Shown here in pieces: positions 3,301 through 64,000 of a stretch of 64,000 bases of DNA (within the stretch, counting starts at the first letter, position 1; each line of letters begins with the position of its first letter). Made by a program: the position numbers and the translations under genes. Origin of the DNA: Lentzea kentuckyensis (GTDB lineage Bacteria; Actinomycetota; Actinomycetes; Mycobacteriales; Pseudonocardiaceae); NCBI RefSeq assembly GCF_002150765.1, contig NZ_MUYM01000064.1:287-64286 (forward strand), in the 5' to 3' direction. Under the pieces are notes generated by a model that saw only the letters and a list, made by a program, of their open reading frames with translations, was not told where the DNA came from and did no database searches.

Positions 3301-6300
3301 CACCGGCCAAACCGTGCCGTTGTGGTGCGTGACCCAGGGCGCGGTCTCCGTGGGCGACGACGATCCGGTGACCAGTCCGGAGCAGTCGTCGATCTGGGGC
3401 TTCGGCCGGGCCGCGGCGCTGGAGCACCCGCGGTGGTGGGGCGGACTGGTCGACCTGCCGGCCGTGGTCGACGAGGGCGTCGCCACCCGTCTGCGCGGTG
3501 TGCTGACCTCGTCCGGTACTGAGGACCAGATCGCCGTACGGCCGGCTGGAGTGTTCGGCCGGCGGCTGGTGAAGGCGCGGAGCTCGGCGCGGGCCGGCGG
3601 CACCTGGAGCCCGGCGGGCACCGTGCTGATCACCGGTGGGACCGGTGGGCTGGGCAGCGTCGTGGCGCGCTGGCTGGCGCACAACGGTGCTGAGCATCTG
3701 GTGCTGATGTCGCGGCGCGGCATCGACACGCCAGGCACCGTGGAACTGCGGAACGAACTGACGGCACTGGGTTCCCAGGTGAGTGTCGTCGCCGGTGACG
3801 CCGCCGACCGGGACGCGGTCGACGCCGTGCTCGCCGGGATTCCGGCGGAACTGCCGTTGACGGCGGTGTTCCACGCCGCTGGTGTGGTGGACGACCAGGA
3901 GCTGTCGGGACTGACCCGTCAGCAGCTGACCGCGGTGCTGCGGTCGAAGGTCACCTCGGCCCGGCACCTCCACGAGGCGACCCGAGAGCACGGGCTGACG
4001 GCGTTCGTGCTGTTCTCCTCGATCGCCGGTGTGTGGGGCAGCGGCGGTCAGGCGGCCTACTCGGCCGCGAACGCCTACCTGGACGGACTGGCCGGACTCA
4101 GGCGGGCGGAAGGCCTGCCGGCCACCTCGGTGGCGTGGGGCGCGTGGGCCGAAGCGGGAATGGCGGCGGATCCCGGCGCCGACGCTCGGCTCCGGCGACA
4201 GGGAATCCGGCCGATGCACCCGGCCACTGCCATCGCGGCGTTGCGCAGCGCGTTGGATCACGACGAGACGGCCGTGGTCGTGGCGGACATCGACTGGTCG
4301 AAGTTCGCCACGCTGTTCACCTCGGGGCGTGGCAGCGCGCTGCTGACCGGGCTGCCGGAGGTCGCCGAGATCCTCGGTGCCGCAGATGGCGGGGATGGCG
4401 CGGAGCCGTTGTTCCGGCGGCGTCTCGAGGGCCTGGACGAGGCCGGGCGCCGGCGTGCGGCGCTGGACGTCGTGCGGACGCAGGCGGCCGCTGTGCTCGG
4501 GCACGACGGTCCTGGCGCGGTCGCCGTGGACAGGGCGTTCCGCGACCTCGGCTACGACTCCCTGATGGCGGTGGAACTCCGGGCCCGGCTTGCCACCGCG
4601 ACCGGACTCACGCTGCCGTCGACGGTGGCGTTCGACCATCCGACGCCGGAGATCCTCGCTGATCATCTACTGGCGGAGCTGTTCGGGGCGCGGGCCGACG
4701 TGCCGGTGCGGACGACCGCAGTCGGCGGACCGGCCGAGGATCCCGTGGTGATCGTCGGCATGTCCTGCCGCTTCCCCGGTGGGGTCGCATCGGCGGACGA
4801 CCTGTGGGAGCTGGTGGTCGCGGGACGTGACGCGATCGCGGAGTTCCCCGCCGACCGAGGCTGGGATCCCGAACTGACGGGTTCCGGCGGGTTCCTGGAG
4901 GACGTGGCCGGGTTCGACGCGGGCTTCTTCGGCATCTCGCCGCGCGAGGCGCTGGCGATGGATCCGCAGCAGCGGTTGTTGCTGGAGGTGTCCTGGGAGG
5001 CGGTCGAGCGGGCCGGGATCGACCCGCGATCGTTGCGGGGCAGCCAGACCGGCGTGTTCGTCGGAGCTGGCAGCGTCAACTACTCCGAGCTGCTGACGGA
5101 GGAGTCCGAGGGCCTTGTGCTCACGGGCAGCGTCACCAGTGCCATCTCCGGCAGGGTCGCGTACACGCTGGGGCTGGAAGGCCCGGCGATGACCGTGGAC
5201 ACGGCGTGCTCGTCGTCTCTGGTCGCTCTCCACGTCGCCATTCAGGCTCTGCACCAGGGAGATTGTTCGCTCGCGCTGGTCGGCGGCGTGAACGTGATTC
5301 CTGATCCGTTCATCTTCGAGGAGTTCGCCCGCCAGGGCGGGTTGTCGTCGGACGGGCGGTGCAAGGCGTTCGCCGACACCGCCGATGGCACCGGCTGGTC
5401 AGAAGGCGCCGGCGTCCTGGTGGTGGAGCGACGCTCCGAGGCCGAACGCAACGGGCATCGCGTCCTCGCCGTGATCCGGGCGAGCGCGACGAACCAGGAC
5501 GGCGCGTCGAACGGCATGACCGCGCCGAACGGTCCGTCGCAACGCCGCGTGATCCGCCGCGCGCTGTCGATCGCGGGACTGTCCCCGTCCGAGGTGGACG
5601 TGGTGGAGGCGCACGGAACCGGGACGACGCTGGGTGATCCGATCGAGGCGCAGGCGCTGCTCGCGACCTACGGTCAGGATCGGGACCAGCCGTTGTTGCT
5701 GGGGTCGGTGAAGTCGAACCTCGGCCACCCCGCGGCAGCCGCGGGCGTCGCCGGCGTGATCAAGATGGTGCAGGCGTTGCGTCATGGTGTGGCGCCGAAG
5801 AGCCTGCACCTCGACGCTCCTTCGGCGCAGGTCGACTGGTCGGCGGGCGCGGTGGAGCTGCTGGCGGAGAACACCGCGTGGCCGGAGGTGGGTCGCCCGC
5901 GTCGTGCCGGTGTGTCCTCGTTCGGGATCAGCGGAACGAACGCGCACGTGATCCTGGAACAGGCCGAGCCGGTGTACGAACCGGTGTCGGTGGAGGTGCC
6001 GGTCGTGCCGTGGGTGGTGTCCGCGAAGTCGGAGCCGGCGCTGGCGGCTCAGGTCGAGCGCTTCGAGTCCGTTGAGGACTCTCGGGTCGACGTCGGTTGG
6101 TCTTTGTGTGCAAGGAGTGTGTTCGAGCACCGGGCGGTGTTGCTGGCGACTGACGCCGGCGTCGCCGAGGTGGCTCGTGGTGTGTCTTCTGATCAGCGTG
6201 TGGCGTTTGTGTTTTCTGGTCAGGGTTCGCAGCGGGTGGGGATGGGCCGTGGTCTGGCTGAACGGTTCCCGGTGTTCGCTGCCGCGTTGGATGAGGTTCT

Positions 6301-57552: not shown

Positions 57553-59040
57553 TCAGTCCGCGTTGACGACGTGCACGTCCAGGCCGGCGTCGCGGTGACG
57601 AGCGGCCCAGGTCTCGATGGCCTGCCCGCACGCCTGGTCGAGGTGGCGCAGCCCGGTCAGGTCGAGCCGTACGTGCTTGGTGAGCGGCAGCCCTTCCAGC
57701 ACCGCGAGCAACCGCGGCAACCGCAGGAACGTCGCGTTGCCGCGCAGCACGACGACCTCGTCGTCGTCGCCCAGCGGAGTCACGGTCACCGAGAGGTGCG
57801 AGACGTCCCACGCGGTCTTGATCACGGCGGCGGCCAGTCCGGCGAGTGTGCCGGTGAGCAGGTCGGTGCTCACGATGAGACCGGCGGTGAGGACGAGGAT
57901 CGCGCCCTCGGCACGATCGGTGCGCAGCATGCCGGCCACTCCCTTGAGGCCGAGCAACTTCCACCCCGAGTGGACCAGCAGGGCGGCGAGCACCGCGCTC
58001 GGGATGAGCCCGAGCAACCCCGGCAGCGCGACCACGAACAGCAGCAGCCACACGCCGTGCAGCACGCGAGACGCGCGAGTCTGCGCGCCCGCCTGCACGT
58101 TGGCCGCGCTGCGGACGATCACGGCGGTCATCGGCAGCGCGCCGAGCAGACCGCACACCGTGTTGCCCGCGCCCTGTGCGATGAGCTCGGTGTTGTACTG
58201 GGTGCGCGGACCGTTGTGCATCCGGTCGACGGCCGCGGCGCTGAAGAGGCTTTCCGCCGACGACACCAGGGCGAACACCACGGCCGCGCCGAGCACGCCC
58301 GCGTTGACGAGCGAGAAGTCGGGCAGGTGCAGTTCGTCCTGCAGGTTGCCGACCTCGATGCGGTGCAGGTCGAAGCCCGGCAGCGCGGACACCGCGGTGG
58401 CCACGACCACGCCGACGAGCACGCCCGGCAGGAGACGCAACTTCGGCGGAGTGCGCTGCCACAGCACCGTGACGACGATGGTGAGCAGGCCGACGCCCAG
58501 CGCCGCCAGACCGGCGGACGTGGTGAACGCGCGCAGGACCAGTTCCGGTAAGCCGGAGACCTTGGCCCACGTGCCGCTCGGCTGCGTGCTGCCCAGGAAC
58601 GGGTAGAGCTGGCCGAGGATCAGCACGAGGCCGATGCCCGCCAGCATGCCCTGCACCACCGCGGGGGAGATGGCGCGGAACCACGTGCCGCAGCGCAGCA
58701 CGCCGAGCAGGAGCTGCAACAGTCCCGCGCCGAGGACGATGACGCCGAGAGCCCCGATGCCGTGCTGTGCGACGGTGTCCGCCACGAGCACGGTGAGCCC
58801 GGCCGCCGGGCCGCTGACCTGCATGGTGCTGCCCGGCAGCAGTCCGACGACGATGCCGCCGACGATGCCGGTCACGATGCCGAGCTCGGCCGGGACACCG
58901 GACGCCACCGCGACGCCCACGCACAGCGGCAGCGCCACGAGGAAGACGACGAGCGAGGCGCCGACGTCCTTGCCGAACGTCTGCCGCCAGGCCGGCCGGG
59001 AAACGGGTCGGTGGTCAGGGTGTTTGGTCAAGGTGGTCAT
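57553..59040 (-). CDS. SulP-family anion (probable bicarbonate/sulfate) transporter with STAS domain
   Basis: About 495 aa with 10 or more hydrophobic segments. Signatures are FLVALPLCVGVAVASGVP, GLLPGSTMQVSGPAAGLTV and FSAAAVDRMHNG, followed by a short C-terminal STAS domain (residues about 415-495). Its pairing with a beta-carbonic anhydrase is a known SulP arrangement and suggests bicarbonate uptake. The ATG at 59040 has GAGG 6 nt upstream; a GTG at 59052 overlapping the carbonic anhydrase stop (GTGA) is an equally coupled alternative. The two genes form one operon. Confidence 0.92.
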   Translation of the reverse strand: MTTLTKHPDHRPVSRPAWRQTFGKDVGASLVVFLVALPLCVGVAVASGVPAELGIVTGIVGGIVVGLLPGSTMQVSGPAAGLTVLVADTVAQHGIGALGVIVLGAGLLQLLLGVLRCGTWFRAISPAVVQGMLAGIGLVLILGQLYPFLGSTQPSGTWAKVSGLPELVLRAFTTSAGLAALGVGLLTIVVTVLWQRTPPKLRLLPGVLVGVVVATAVSALPGFDLHRIEVGNLQDELHLPDFSLVNAGVLGAAVVFALVSSAESLFSAAAVDRMHNGPRTQYNTELIAQGAGNTVCGLLGALPMTAVIVRSAANVQAGAQTRASRVLHGVWLLLFVVALPGLLGLIPSAVLAALLVHSGWKLLGLKGVAGMLRTDRAEGAILVLTAGLIVSTDLLTGTLAGLAAAVIKTAWDVSHLSVTVTPLGDDDEVVVLRGNATFLRLPRLLAVLEGLPLTKHVRLDLTGLRHLDQACGQAIETWAARHRDAGLDVHVVNAD

Positions 59041-59048
59041 CTCCGACC

Positions 59049-59627
59049 TCACAGGGGCTGGAAGGCCGCGGCCACCGACGTCATGACCTCACCGGTCTCG
59101 ATGTCGTAGAACCAGCCGTGCACGCGGAGATCACCGGACAGCACGCGCTCCTGCACGAACGGGTAGTTCTCCAGCGTCCGCAGCTGTTCCAGCACGTGCT
59201 GCTTGCCCTCGTCGCGCAACGCCGGGTCCACCGCGGTCGCACCGCGCTTCGCGTTGCGGGACAGCCAGCTCCGCATCGTGGGCAGGTGCTCGATGTCCGT
59301 GCCGTGCAACGCACTCACGGCACCGCAGTGTGAGTGACCGCACACGATCACTTCGGACACACCCAGCTGCACGACGGCGAACTCGATCGTCGCCATCTCG
59401 CTGGACGGAGTCTCCAGCCGGTACTCGGGAATGACGTTGCCCGCGGTGCGGAGCTCGAACAGGGTGCCAGGCTCCGCGCCGGTGATGGCCGACGTCACGA
59501 TGCGGGAGTCCGCGCAGGTGACGAAGAGGGCTGTGGGCTGCTGACCGGTCGCGAGCCGCTGTCCCACCGATTTCGGGCGGACGACGGAGTGTTCGCGGGC
59601 GCGCTCGATCAAGCGACGGAAGTCCAT
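59049..59627 (-). CDS. Beta-class carbonic anhydrase
   Basis: A 192-aa zinc enzyme interconverting CO2 and bicarbonate. The zinc ligands are the Cys of TCADSR and the His and Cys of GHSHCGAV; the Asp-Arg dyad of CADSR is present. ELRTAGN and FAVVQLGV are typical of the family. The ATG has GAGGA just upstream. It is first in a two-gene operon with the SulP transporter, whose substrate it probably makes or consumes. Confidence 0.96.
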   Translation of the reverse strand: MDFRRLIERAREHSVVRPKSVGQRLATGQQPTALFVTCADSRIVTSAITGAEPGTLFELRTAGNVIPEYRLETPSSEMATIEFAVVQLGVSEVIVCGHSHCGAVSALHGTDIEHLPTMRSWLSRNAKRGATAVDPALRDEGKQHVLEQLRTLENYPFVQERVLSGDLRVHGWFYDIETGEVMTSVAAAFQPL

Positions 59628-60160: not shown

Positions 60161-60175
60161 CGATAATCATTATCG
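60161..60175. promoter_or_regulatory. Fur-family (Zur/Fur)-like operator upstream of the methyltransferase
   Basis: CGATAATCATTATCG is a perfect 7-1-7 palindrome, closely matching the TGATAAT-N-ATTATCA unit recognised by Fur-family metalloregulators. It is markedly AT-rich against its surroundings and lies 35 bp before the methyltransferase start, where it could block a promoter. It is 117 bp from the divergent small secreted gene. The match was judged by eye. Confidence 0.6.
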
Positions 60176-60210
60176 AACTACCATGCCCCTCGATGAGCTC
60201 GGGAGGCGTG

Positions 60211-61326
60211 ATGGAAGAACTTGTCCGGCTGGCCGCGGCGGCCGGTGAAGCGGCGGTGTCCGGGGCCGACCTGGCCCCGCTCGGCGACCTGGCCGATCTG
60301 CTCGACGAGGCCGCGTTGCTGGCGATCGCCTACACCGTCCGGCGGCACGGCCTCTTCGGGGATCGCCTGGCCGCGCATGATCTCGGCGAGATCGTCGCGG
60401 CGATGAAGGTGGCGCCACGGCATGTGCGGATCGTGCGGCGCTGGCTCGCGGCGCTGGAGCGCGAGGGCATGGTGACGCGTCAGGGCGGGGTGTGGCGGGA
60501 GCTGCGGCGCGTGGAGGCCGCGGAGGTCGAGGGTGCGCGGTCACGTCTCGACGCCGCCGCTCGCGGGTTCGCGCACGGGCCGGGGCTGACGCGGTTCTTC
60601 CAGCAGTCGGTGTCGTACCTGCCGGAACTGCTGCGGGACGAGATCTCGTTGCAGGCGTTGCTGTTCGCCGACGGCGACCTCGACGTGGCCGACGACGTGT
60701 ACCGCCGCAACCTGGCGAGCAGGTACACGAACAACGCGGCCGCCGCGGTGATGCGGGACTTCGCCGAGGGGCGGTCCACGCGGGTGCTGGAGATCGGCGC
60801 CGGCGTGGGTGGCACGACCGCGGAGGTGCTGCCGCGGCTCGACGGGCTGGACGTCGACTACCTGTTCACGGACGTGACGCGGTTCTTCCTGATGACGGCG
60901 AAGGAACGGTTCGCGTCCTGGTCGTGGGTGCGGTACGGCCTGTTCGACCTCAACGGCGACGCCGCGGCGGCGGGTTCGGTGGATCTCGTGCTGGCGGCGA
61001 ACGTGCTGCACAACGCGAAGCACGCGGGACGGGTGTTGCGGGCGATCCACTCGATGCTCGCGCCGGGCGGGCGGCTGGTGTTCATCGAGACCTGTCGTGA
61101 TCACTACCAGCTCATGACGTCGATGCAGTTCCTGATGTCGCCGCCGGCGAGTGAGCCCGATGCCGACTTCGCGGACTTCCGTGCGGGCACCGACCGGATC
61201 TTCCCGACGCGTGAGGAGTGGCTCGGTGAGCTCGCGGCGGCGGGTTTCCGGGACCTGGTGTGCCTGCCGGACGCCGACCATCCGCTGGCCAGGATCGGTC
61301 AGCACGTGTTTTCCGCAGAACGCTAA
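60211..61326 (+). CDS. Free-standing PKS/NRPS-type C-methyltransferase
   Basis: A 371-aa SAM-dependent methyltransferase. An N-terminal helical cap (residues about 1-95, RIVRRWLAALEREGMVTR) is followed by LPELLRDEISLQALLF and RYTNNAAAAVMRDF, then the SAM-binding motif VLEIGAGVGGT (192-202), YLFTDVTRFFL and ANVLHNAKH. This order is that of C-methyltransferase domains embedded in PKS and PKS-NRPS hybrids, here as a separate protein. ATG 60211 has GGGAGG 4 nt upstream; ATG 60193 is in frame but less favoured. The PKS gene starts 82 bp downstream, so a trans-acting role on its polyketide is likely. A classical O-methyltransferase is the alternative. Confidence 0.82.
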   Translation: MEELVRLAAAAGEAAVSGADLAPLGDLADLLDEAALLAIAYTVRRHGLFGDRLAAHDLGEIVAAMKVAPRHVRIVRRWLAALEREGMVTRQGGVWRELRRVEAAEVEGARSRLDAAARGFAHGPGLTRFFQQSVSYLPELLRDEISLQALLFADGDLDVADDVYRRNLASRYTNNAAAAVMRDFAEGRSTRVLEIGAGVGGTTAEVLPRLDGLDVDYLFTDVTRFFLMTAKERFASWSWVRYGLFDLNGDAAAAGSVDLVLAANVLHNAKHAGRVLRAIHSMLAPGGRLVFIETCRDHYQLMTSMQFLMSPPASEPDADFADFRAGTDRIFPTREEWLGELAAAGFRDLVCLPDADHPLARIGQHVFSAER

Positions 61327-61327
61327 T

Positions 61328-61342
61328 TGACAACGATTGTCG
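61328..61342. promoter_or_regulatory. Second Fur/Zur-like palindrome, upstream of the PKS gene
   Basis: TGACAACGATTGTCG contains a perfect 5-3-5 inverted repeat (GACAA-CGA-TTGTC, 61329-61341) of the same size and spacing class as the box at 60161. It starts two bases after the methyltransferase stop codon and lies 66 bp before the PKS start. It is weaker than the first site. Confidence 0.45.
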
Positions 61343-61408: not shown

Positions 61409-64000
61409 GTGAACGAGTCCGTCGCTGTCGTCGGGTTTTCGTGCCGTTTTCCCGGAGCCGGTGACGCGGACGAGTTCTGGCAGCTGCTCGCCGACGGCCG
61501 GGAGACGCTGACCCGGTTCACCGACGAGGAGCTGGCGCGGCGCGGTGTTCCGGCGGGGTTGCGCCGCAACCCCGCCTACGTGCCGGTCGGTGGCCTCATC
61601 GCCGACCAGGACCGGTTCGATCCGGCGCCGTTCGGGATCTCGCGGGTGGAGGCGGAACTGCTCGACCCGCAGCAGCGGGTCTTCCTGGAGTGCGCGTGGC
61701 ACGCGCTCGACCACGCCGGTCTCGGCTCGGGCGCGGGGGTCACCGGGGTGTTCGCGGGAGCCGGGCTCTCGGCGTACCTCCTGACGAACCTCGGGCACCG
61801 CTTCGACCCGCTCGGTGGTGCGGATCCGGCCGGCAACCTCGGGCTGCACACCGGGAACGTGGCCGACTACCTGCCGTTGCGCACCGCGCACCGCCTCGGC
61901 CTCGAAGGGCCCGCGGTGGCGGTGGGCGCCACCTGCGCGACCTCGTTGGTCGCCGTGCACGTCGCGGCACAGGCGTTGCTCGCGGGGGAGTGCGACACCG
62001 CGCTGGCGGGCGGGGTGTCGCTGCGCGTGCCGCAGGGGCTGGGCTACCTGCACGTACCGGACGGCCCGTTCTCCGCCGACGGCCGCACCCGCCCCTACTC
62101 GGCGCGGGCGGCCGGCACCGTCTTCACCCAGGGCGCCGGTGTCGTCGTGCTCCGGCGGCTGTCCGACGCGCTCGCCGACGGCGACCACGTGCACGCCGTG
62201 ATCCTGGGTTCCGCCGTCGGCAACGACGGCGCGGACCGAGTGGGCTTCACCGCGCCGTCCCCGGCGGGGCAGGCGCGCGTGATCGCCGAGTCGCTCGCGG
62301 TGGGCGACGTCGACCCGCGTTCGGTGTCCTATGTGGAGGGACACGGGACGGGGACGATCCTGGGCGACCCCATCGAGGTGCGGGCGTTGCGGCGCGTCTT
62401 CGGCGACTCCGAACGGCCGTGGTGCGGCCTCGGGTCGGTCAAGGGCAACATCGGGCACGCCGACTCGGCGGCGGGCATCGCCGGACTGCTCAAGGTGGTC
62501 CAGGCCCTGCGGCACCGGACGTTGCCGGCGTCGTTGCACGCACTGCCGGTGAACCCCGAGATCGGGCTGGAGGGATCGGCCTTCCGGCTGGTCGACAGCA
62601 CGGAGGCGTGGGAGAGCCGCGAACCGCGCCGCGCGGGAGTCAGCTCGTTCGGCATCGGTGGGGTGAACTGCCACGTCGTGCTGGAGGAAGCGCCCGTCGT
62701 GGCGGAGCCGGACCGCGACGAACGCGCCCAGGTGCTGGTGGTGTCCGCCGCGACCGCGGCAGCCTGTCGCGCCACGGCACGAGCACTCGCCGGCGCGTCG
62801 GCGTCGGCGCCCCTCGCCGACGTCGCACACACGCTGGCCGGTCGGCGACAGCTGGCCGCGAGGGCCGCCGTGGCGGTCGGCCGCGGTGACGACCCGGCGG
62901 AGGCACTGCGGCGGGCCGCGGTCGTGGAGGCCGCCGCGACGCCGCCACGCGTGGTGTTCGCGTTCCCCGGTGGCGGCGCCCAGTACGCCGGCATGGCCGC
63001 GGGCCCGTACCGCGACGAGCCGGTCTTCGCGTCCACAGTGGACGAGATCGCGGCGTACCTGCTGCCGTTGTCCGGTGCGGACGTGCGCGAGGTGCTGCTC
63101 GACCCGGCGTCCGCCGCCCGCGACCCGCGGACCGGGTTGCCCGCGTTGTTCACCGCTTCACTGGCCACCGCACGGCTGCTCGAGTCCTGGGGCGTGCGGC
63201 CGGACGTGGTGCTCGGGCACAGCGTCGGCGAGTACGCGGCCGCGGTCGTCGCCGGGGTGCTCTCGTGGCAGGACGCGGCCCTGCTGGTGGCCGAGCGATC
63301 GCGCCTGATGGGTGAGCTGCCGCAGGGCGCCATGCTGTCGGTGCCGCTCGGTGAGACGAAGGTGCGGGAGCTGCTCGTCGCGCATCCGGAACTCGATCTC
63401 GCCGCCGTCAACGCCTCCGACGCGTGTGCCGTGTCGGGGCCCGCCGATGCGATCGCCGCTCTGCGCGCCGCCCTCACCGTCGAGGCGCACGTCGTCGGCG
63501 TGGACGTGGCCGCGCACTCCCGCGTGGTGGAGCCCGCGATGCCCGCCCTGCGCGCGGTGGCCGGGCGCCTGACCGCACAACCGGCGGCGATTCCGCTGGT
63601 CACCACGCTCACCGGTGAGGTGGCCGGGACCGTGGACGCGGAGCACTGGGTACGGCACCTGCGGGGCACGGTCCGGTTCGCCGACGCGCTCGACACCGCG
63701 ATCGGCGCTGACGAGTCGGTGGTCGTTCAGGTCGGGCCCGGCGGCATGATCGCCTCGCTCGGAGCGCGCCGCGAGCAGGTTCGCGCGGCGGTGACGACCT
63801 TCCCGCGTGCCGGTGAGGACCTCGACGGCCGAGTGGCGCTGCTCGACGCGGCCGGAACCCTGTGGGCACAGGGCGTCGCGGTGGATCTGGCCGCGACCCG
63901 GCGAGGCCGCCGCACCCGCGTTCCGCTGCCCGGCTACGCGTTCCAGCGGGAACGGTTCTGGGTCGAACCTCCGCCCGCGCGCAGTGCCATGATCGGTCCG
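61409..64000 (+). CDS. Type I PKS, N-terminal KS-AT part (3' end cut)
   Basis: 864 codons to the window edge with no stop. The protein begins directly with a KS (MNESVAVVGFSCRFPG) and has no docking helix, so it may be the first enzyme of its line or recruit partners differently. KS about 61412-62690: the active-site Cys (61934-61936) sits in GATCATS instead of DTACSS; EGHGTGT and NIGHADSAAG are intact. AT about 62960-63800: FPGGGAQYAGM, GHSVGEY (Ser 63221-63223) and AAHS (His 63515-63517), a pattern of hybrid PKS-NRPS ATs; probably malonyl-CoA but not secure. A post-AT linker ends [10 protein letters not shown]. The GTG start is fixed by GGGAG at 61397-61401, 7 nt upstream. Sequence type differs clearly from the large PKS operon. 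Confidence 0.93.
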   Translation, partial: MNESVAVVGFSCRFPGAGDADEFWQLLADGRETLTRFTDEELARRGVPAGLRRNPAYVPVGGLIADQDRFDPAPFGISRVEAELLDPQQRVFLECAWHALDHAGLGSGAGVTGVFAGAGLSAYLLTNLGHRFDPLGGADPAGNLGLHTGNVADYLPLRTAHRLGLEGPAVAVGATCATSLVAVHVAAQALLAGECDTALAGGVSLRVPQGLGYLHVPDGPFSADGRTRPYSARAAGTVFTQGAGVVVLRRLSDALADGDHVHAVILGSAVGNDGADRVGFTAPSPAGQARVIAESLAVGDVDPRSVSYVEGHGTGTILGDPIEVRALRRVFGDSERPWCGLGSVKGNIGHADSAAGIAGLLKVVQALRHRTLPASLHALPVNPEIGLEGSAFRLVDSTEAWESREPRRAGVSSFGIGGVNCHVVLEEAPVVAEPDRDERAQVLVVSAATAAACRATARALAGASASAPLADVAHTLAGRRQLAARAAVAVGRGDDPAEALRRAAVVEAAATPPRVVFAFPGGGAQYAGMAAGPYRDEPVFASTVDEIAAYLLPLSGADVREVLLDPASAARDPRTGLPALFTASLATARLLESWGVRPDVVLGHSVGEYAAAVVAGVLSWQDAALLVAERSRLMGELPQGAMLSVPLGETKVRELLVAHPELDLAAVNASDACAVSGPADAIAALRAALTVEAHVVGVDVAAHSRVVEPAMPALRAVAGRLTAQPAAIPLVTTLTGEVAGTVDAEHWVRHLRGTVRFADALDTAIGADESVVVQVGPGGMIASLGARREQVRAAVTTFPRAGEDLDGRVALLDAAGTLWAQGVAVDLAATRRGRRTRVPLPGYAFQRERFWVEPPPARSAMIGP

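Follow-up and report, generated by a model that had tools for sequence, protein, structure and literature searches.

The question raised by this locus is whether two Fur-type palindromes, lying before a C-methyltransferase gene and a polyketide synthase (PKS) gene of Lentzea kentuckyensis, mark a metal-controlled metallophore pathway and, if so, which regulator and which metal are concerned. The stretch of DNA analyzed, hereafter the window, comprises 64,000 nt of contig NZ_MUYM01000064.1; the contig was also read to position 136000 in continued window numbering, where genes were called with a simple script based on third-codon-position GC content (GC3) and starts are approximate. The cluster is likely to encode a Zur-repressed zincophore pathway, thiazoline-type and of the coelibactin/yersiniabactin kind, in which the boxes would serve as Zur operators.

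Zur-type boxes in three promoters

The perfect 7-1-7 palindrome before the C-methyltransferase gene and the related box before the PKS gene, both proposed in the first-pass annotation of the window, were confirmed (Table 1). Box 1 lies 35 nt upstream of the methyltransferase ATG, and box 2 lies upstream of the PKS start codon, a GTG at 61409. The two boxes do bracket the methyltransferase/PKS pair as had been proposed, and the description was incomplete in that a third box is present outside the window. The arms of boxes 1, 2, and 3 match at 7/7, 5/7, and 5/7 pairs, respectively. Palindromy by itself is weak evidence, given that the window contains as many as 18 perfect 7-1-7 palindromes; box 1 alone among them has at least 9 A/T in its 15 bases. 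Sites resembling GATAATCATTATC with up to three mismatches gave six rows in the window, i.e., five places when the palindrome counted on both strands is taken once, against 0.55 expected; none of 100 shuffles reached six rows, and boxes 1 and 2 are two of the five places. The pattern TTGACA-N17-TANNNT matched once at the box 2 promoter with one mismatch, which is weak as 28 of 200 shuffles also matched, and a general promoter scan returned no promoter.

To avoid circularity, a Zur matrix was built independently of the boxes from predicted Mycobacterium smegmatis sites, using 12 of the 23 rows of Table 6 of PMC7174638, namely, 11 before genes called Zur-regulated in the text of that source and that of smtB. 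The first-pass annotation had suggested such a scan, with low scores counting against metal control; instead, boxes 3, 1, and 2 ranked first, second, and third in 136 kb, and the next best site scored 14.9 bits. In a 20-Mb first-order Markov null sequence, 0, 2, and 3 positions scored at or above the values of boxes 3, 1, and 2, i.e., ∼0.006 per 64 kb for the box 1 score and ∼0.010 for the box 2 score. The Streptomyces coelicolor Zur motif derived from chromatin immunoprecipitation is also of the 7-1-7 type, tGaNNatSatNNtCa (PMC5472717), and by eye boxes 1, 2, and 3 agree with it at 9, 9, and 10 of the 11 defined bases. The boxes are very probably actinobacterial Zur operators. The earlier attribution to Zur or another Fur paralogue agrees with the high scores and with the presence of the same box type before zinc-starvation genes of this genome.

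Similar sites were searched for in the 10.2-Mb assembly, which is 92% complete. Exact matches to GAHAAYNRTTDTC, a pattern drawn partly from the boxes, were found at four places, three in the cluster and one on contig C241; with one mismatch, 104 places were obtained against 46 for the reversed control. The C241 site precedes the gene for an MRF (hibernation-recruiting factor) GTPase, which at 433 bits exceeds the NCBIfam cut-off of 375, and the gene for a GTPase resembling the zinc chaperone ZigA, which at 500.5 bits falls short of the 600 set for its model. In M. smegmatis, MRF has been reported to depend on Zur and zinc. Among 24 Lentzea genomes, 21 carry MRF-type loci, 23 in all; nine of these, including that of the window's genome, keep a 20.8-bit site at the equivalent place, and two others carry sites of 16.3 and 12.5 bits. 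The sole ZnuA-family gene of the genome is preceded by an 18.0-bit site, likely a Zur site, whose end lies 20 nt from the called start. It was the one retained of seven places inspected among 100; the other six (L023–L028), one-mismatch places in or before genes without an evident zinc role by eye, were set aside.

All three boxes are kept in equivalent promoters in Saccharothrix deserti and Saccharothrix sp. ALI-22-I. Box 1 is identical there at 14/15 bases (93%), compared with 47–52% in the preceding 60 nt and 71% in the stretch between box and ribosome site. In Amycolatopsis kentuckyensis, for which part of the cluster was covered, TGAAAATCATTATCA precedes the first aligned codon of the methyltransferase by 35 nt. 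In Lentzea alba, the NRPS (non-ribosomal peptide synthetase), methyltransferase, and PKS genes follow one another in a single row, and the sole box lies in the ABC/NRPS promoter. Five looser relatives (G262, G256, G268, G143, and G286; methyltransferase ∼47–53%, flavoenzyme ∼54–56%) carry boxes of 16–27 bits, each with one directly before the flavoenzyme gene (16.1–21.0 bits); a sixth, G275, showed no box in the 5.6 kb covered. ZnuA- and COG0523-type genes adjoin the cluster in G256 and G262, and no such matches were found in the stretches covered of G268, G143, and G286. In ALI-22-I, an island of alternative ribosomal-protein genes (L28-L33-S14-S18, followed by a ZigA-type GTPase and a Fur paralogue; L106:16732-20000) lies divergent from an MRF gene, ∼2 kb before the methyltransferase gene. 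The L28/MRF gap holds only a 13.9-bit site, and a ZnuA-family binding protein gene ∼14 kb away has two boxes of 20.8 and 22.2 bits.

Two further observations were made in these relatives. Fur-family matches occur near the flavoenzyme gene in the clusters of looser relatives (L074:12953-13327 and L071:14110-14259; 40% and 48% to L. alba Zur), which are perhaps cluster-own Zur paralogues. A weaker Zur-like site, TGACAATGAATGTCA (15.7 bits), is located in S. deserti at L063:10-24, where it precedes an MFS-like frame that lies close to the cluster on its upstream side.

Gene content and the proposed zincophore

Table 1. Boxes and genes of the L. kentuckyensis cluster in window numbering, continued beyond the window's end at 64,000.
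Feature	Position	Strand	Remarks
Zur-type box 1, CGATAATCATTATCG	60161..60175	.	Perfect 7-1-7 palindrome; 20.5 bits with the mycobacterial Zur matrix; kept in two Saccharothrix
Stand-alone PKS-type C-methyltransferase (371 aa)	60211..61326	+	Methyltransf_12, 63.3 bits; best solved relative CurJ C-methyltransferase, E 1.1e-31
TTGACA, possible −35 hexamer overlapped by box 2	61327..61332	+	
Zur-type box 2, TGACAACGATTGTCG	61328..61342	.	18.9 bits; in two Saccharothrix at the equivalent place as TGACAATGATTGTCG
PKS-NRPS (2738 aa), KS-AT-KR-ACP-Cy-PCP-Cy*-PCP-TE	61409..64000, on to 69625	+	Pfam domains over the whole frame; Cy motifs
206-aa protein without assigned family	69619-70239 (L003:13619-14239)		
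SBP_bac_5 binding protein	70176-71735		
Permease	∼71690-72646		
Fused permease and two ATPases	ending 74739		
KASIII-like protein, CerJ/DpsC-type acyltransferase	74736-75743		
Flavoenzyme, dithiol-oxidase-like	75815-76744	-	
Two MsbA-type ABC proteins	76741-80162	-	
Zur-type box 3, TGACAATCGTTATCA	80157-80171		Divergent ABC/NRPS promoter; 23.5 bits; beyond the window
NRPS, carrier-Cy-A-PCP-Cy-PCP	80232-85517		One cysteine-type A domain

The first-pass annotation had likened the methyltransferase/PKS pair to the start of a yersiniabactin-like or zincophore pathway and had suggested that the sequence be extended in search of NRPS, cyclization, salicylate, and transporter genes. Downstream, a cysteine-heterocyclizing NRPS/PKS system with Cy domains and transporter genes was indeed found; the salicylate part found no support. 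No salicylate synthase and no aryl- or salicyl-AMP ligase exceeded the cut-off anywhere in this 92%-complete genome (TIGR03494, best 192.6 bits against 325.15 needed; TIGR02275, best 222.7 against 723.55), and a salicylate starter was set aside on these grounds. From its first carrier domain onward, the NRPS can be aligned with PchE, and the pocket stretches of its A domain resemble those of BmdB and PchE, which we take to be cysteine-specific. No methyltransferase domain was matched by Pfam over the whole PKS frame, so that a C-methyltransferase acting in trans fits. Among the 11 called proteins, no reductase-type Pfam match that could represent a thiazolinyl reductase was found besides the KR domain and the flavoenzyme, no genome-wide search having been made.

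The nearest relatives of the KASIII-like protein are CerJ, a protein listed as daunorubicin synthase (presumably DpsC), and ChlB3, and this enzyme may load the starter. Relatives of the CerJ/DpsC type occur in 75 of 297 genomes of a family sample at E ≤ 1e-45, with scores above 680 bits confined to four of these genomes and the fifth-best score at 301. Among 396 genomes sampled from the phylum, seven had a match and only the window's own was above 210 bits. The binding protein and permeases of the importer are nearest to nickel/peptide ABC models (NikABCDE-type), all below cut-off. The 206-aa protein had no Pfam or NCBIfam match at E ≤ 0.001 and no significant PDB fold match (best E 0.25); it gave a helical predicted model with a mean predicted local distance difference test score (pLDDT) of 75.5 and is kept in four genomes at 61–76% identity. 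Upstream of box 1 on the other strand (57553-59627, −), frames resembling a SulP-type transporter and a beta-carbonic anhydrase were noted by eye.

In the proposed mechanism, zinc-loaded Zur would keep the cluster off by occupying the three boxes: box 1 upstream of the C-methyltransferase gene, box 2 across the TTGACA that precedes the PKS gene, and box 3 where the ABC-exporter and NRPS genes diverge. Zinc starvation would lift this repression, and with it that of the MRF/ZigA-like GTPase genes and probably of znuA. A thiazoline-type metallophore would then be assembled by the NRPS and PKS-NRPS, with the C-methyltransferase in trans, from several cysteines, a methylated malonate unit, and a starter loaded by the CerJ/DpsC-type enzyme. 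Secretion of the product may fall to the two MsbA-type ABC proteins, and retrieval of its metal complex to the NikABCDE-type importer. The cluster probably directs both the synthesis and the recovery of a small zinc scavenger that is akin to yersiniabactin but has another start and finish.

Two features suggest how such a chelator could work. In the last Cy domain, S or N replaces the first D of DxxxxD in 9/9 homologues, and 18/18 other Cy domains from the same regions keep this D. The flavoenzyme has as solved relatives 4ntd (7.2e-50; listed as thioredoxin reductase, which we take to be HlmI), 3fbs 'oxidoreductase' (2.5e-48), DepH (2.9e-46), 4fk1, a putative thioredoxin reductase (3.9e-44), and GliT (1.2e-35). 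It shares the CxxC of the HlmI/DepH/GliT dithiol oxidases, present as CPFCHG here and in G286 and G256, and differs from them in being located in a heterocyclizing metallophore cluster. Reduced holomycin and dithiol gliotoxin, whose disulfides are formed by such enzymes, chelate zinc (PMC10500201). A tentative elaboration, which we hold to be possible and rather doubtful, is that of a redox-switched zincophore: an acyl-capped, non-salicylate oligothiazoline to which the altered Cy domain would add the last cysteine without ring closure, whose free thiols would bind zinc, and which the flavoenzyme would close to a disulfide for storage or export. It would belong to a Zur-run cluster family of Pseudonocardiaceae, as the flavoenzyme, methyltransferase, and altered Cy domain recur together in the looser relatives with boxes before the flavoenzyme gene.

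The regulator and alternative explanations

Several points weigh against a Zur-repressed zincophore pathway. The genome-wide pattern was modeled partly on the boxes themselves; only the 12-site matrix is independent, and its sites are predicted ones. Twelve of the 23 MRF loci of the genus are without a box, nothing above 5.5 bits being present in the scanned stretch. L. alba shows no box upstream of either the methyltransferase or the PKS gene, perhaps because its NRPS, methyltransferase, and PKS genes run in one row, and in the window's cluster no separate box precedes the flavoenzyme gene. The matches of the binding protein and permease to nickel models stay below the cut-offs, so the metal could be another. 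Finally, a PF01475 search of this assembly (92% complete) did not find a zur gene.

That search returned two Fur proteins, beside ygfZ-like and katG-like frames as read by eye. A third Fur protein (123 bits) is present in 23 of the 24 genomes of the genus and is missing only from the window's genome. In L. alba, its gene follows a frame that by eye is ArsR/SmtB-like, and it occupies 4377-4730; the surrounding region matches contig C261 (94%) up to 4254 and contig C220 (96%) from 4888, both at the very contig end. The absence of zur is most likely an assembly artefact, the C261/C220 gap probably falling on the gene. Beside zur in L. alba (L107:4176-4301) lies a stretch of ∼60–125 bases with many similar copies in the window's genome, and this repeat may be the reason for the gap.

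Were another Fur-family protein (the FurA beside katG, a Nur-like one, or an unseen paralogue) to read the boxes, the signal would be peroxide, nickel, or iron. The assembly does contain two Fur-family proteins and no zur, a Fur paralogue lies near the cluster in ALI-22-I, and Fur-like matches occur in the G143 and G268 clusters; the fit of the boxes to the Zur matrix and the 123-bit Fur of the other genus genomes, whose place coincides with the gap, nevertheless make this quite improbable. Iron control by IdeR/DmdR was also tried and rejected, as the best site in 57500-88000 reached only 12/19 of the consensus. Chance occurrence of palindromes near unrelated biosynthesis genes could draw on the abundance of perfect 7-1-7 palindromes in the window, and it is reduced to a near-negligible prospect by the matrix scores, the location in three promoters, and the conservation in other genera.

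The identity of the metal leaves somewhat more room. Zur control may be real with zinc starvation only as the trigger, the metallophore serving nickel, cobalt, copper, iron, or several of these. The importer's affinity to nickel/peptide models would suit this, as would the finding that yersiniabactin binds copper as well as iron (PMC8725597). We consider it unlikely, since boxes and neighborhoods tie the clusters to zinc genes, and four putative metal transport proteins are encoded in the coelibactin cluster as well (PMC3430247). A Zur-repressed zincophore pathway remains the preferred reading.

Relation to known systems

A close parallel in architecture is yersiniabactin, whose HMWP2 and HMWP1 share with the Lentzea proteins the carrier-Cy-A-PCP-Cy-PCP order of the NRPS, the KS-AT-KR-ACP-Cy-PCP core, and the cysteine-type A pocket; solved relatives of the Lentzea Cy domains include Irp2 and HMWP2. 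The Lentzea cluster differs in that its C-methyltransferase is encoded on its own, an additional, altered Cy*-PCP precedes the TE, Zur-type boxes are present, and neither a salicylate synthase nor an aryl ligase exceeds the cut-off in the genome. [S,S]-Ethylenediaminedisuccinate ([S,S]-EDDS) is a small aminopolycarboxylate and not an NRPS/PKS product, whereas the Lentzea cluster is of the NRPS/PKS type. [S,S]-EDDS is likewise a Zur-run metallophore, from Amycolatopsis japonicum of the same bacterial family (PMC6103462). Coelibactin of Streptomyces coelicolor (SCO7676-7692) is comparable in that its NRPS cluster is also under Zur control and includes genes for metal transport and for two ABC transporters (PMC3430247, PMC5472717), and its product had not been found at the time of that description (PMC3430247). 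Compared by description, the Lentzea cluster has no P450- or ferredoxin-type match among the 11 proteins called in 60211-85517 and has the PKS-NRPS, the CerJ/DpsC-type enzyme, and the dithiol-oxidase-like enzyme instead.

Zur-run metallophores, coelibactin and [S,S]-EDDS among them, are already known (PMC6103462), and it is the gene combination that differs here. A literature search, with most subscription journals outside its range, found no paper describing the locus by title or abstract start. A survey of peptide metallophores published in 2026 states that separating zincophores from siderophores will probably require regulatory elements (PMC12971057). The present cluster is such a case, combining three conserved Zur-type boxes with a zinc-gene neighborhood in relatives and with an assembly line that has no salicylate genes in its vicinity. 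It allows zinc-starvation culture combined with metabolomics to be aimed at a chelator of a new type, and a testable idea of how such a chelator works comes from the flavoenzyme. Elsewhere in the genome, a giant NRPS was observed at C185:37380-93441, with open frames of ∼8000 residues and many adenylation-domain matches.
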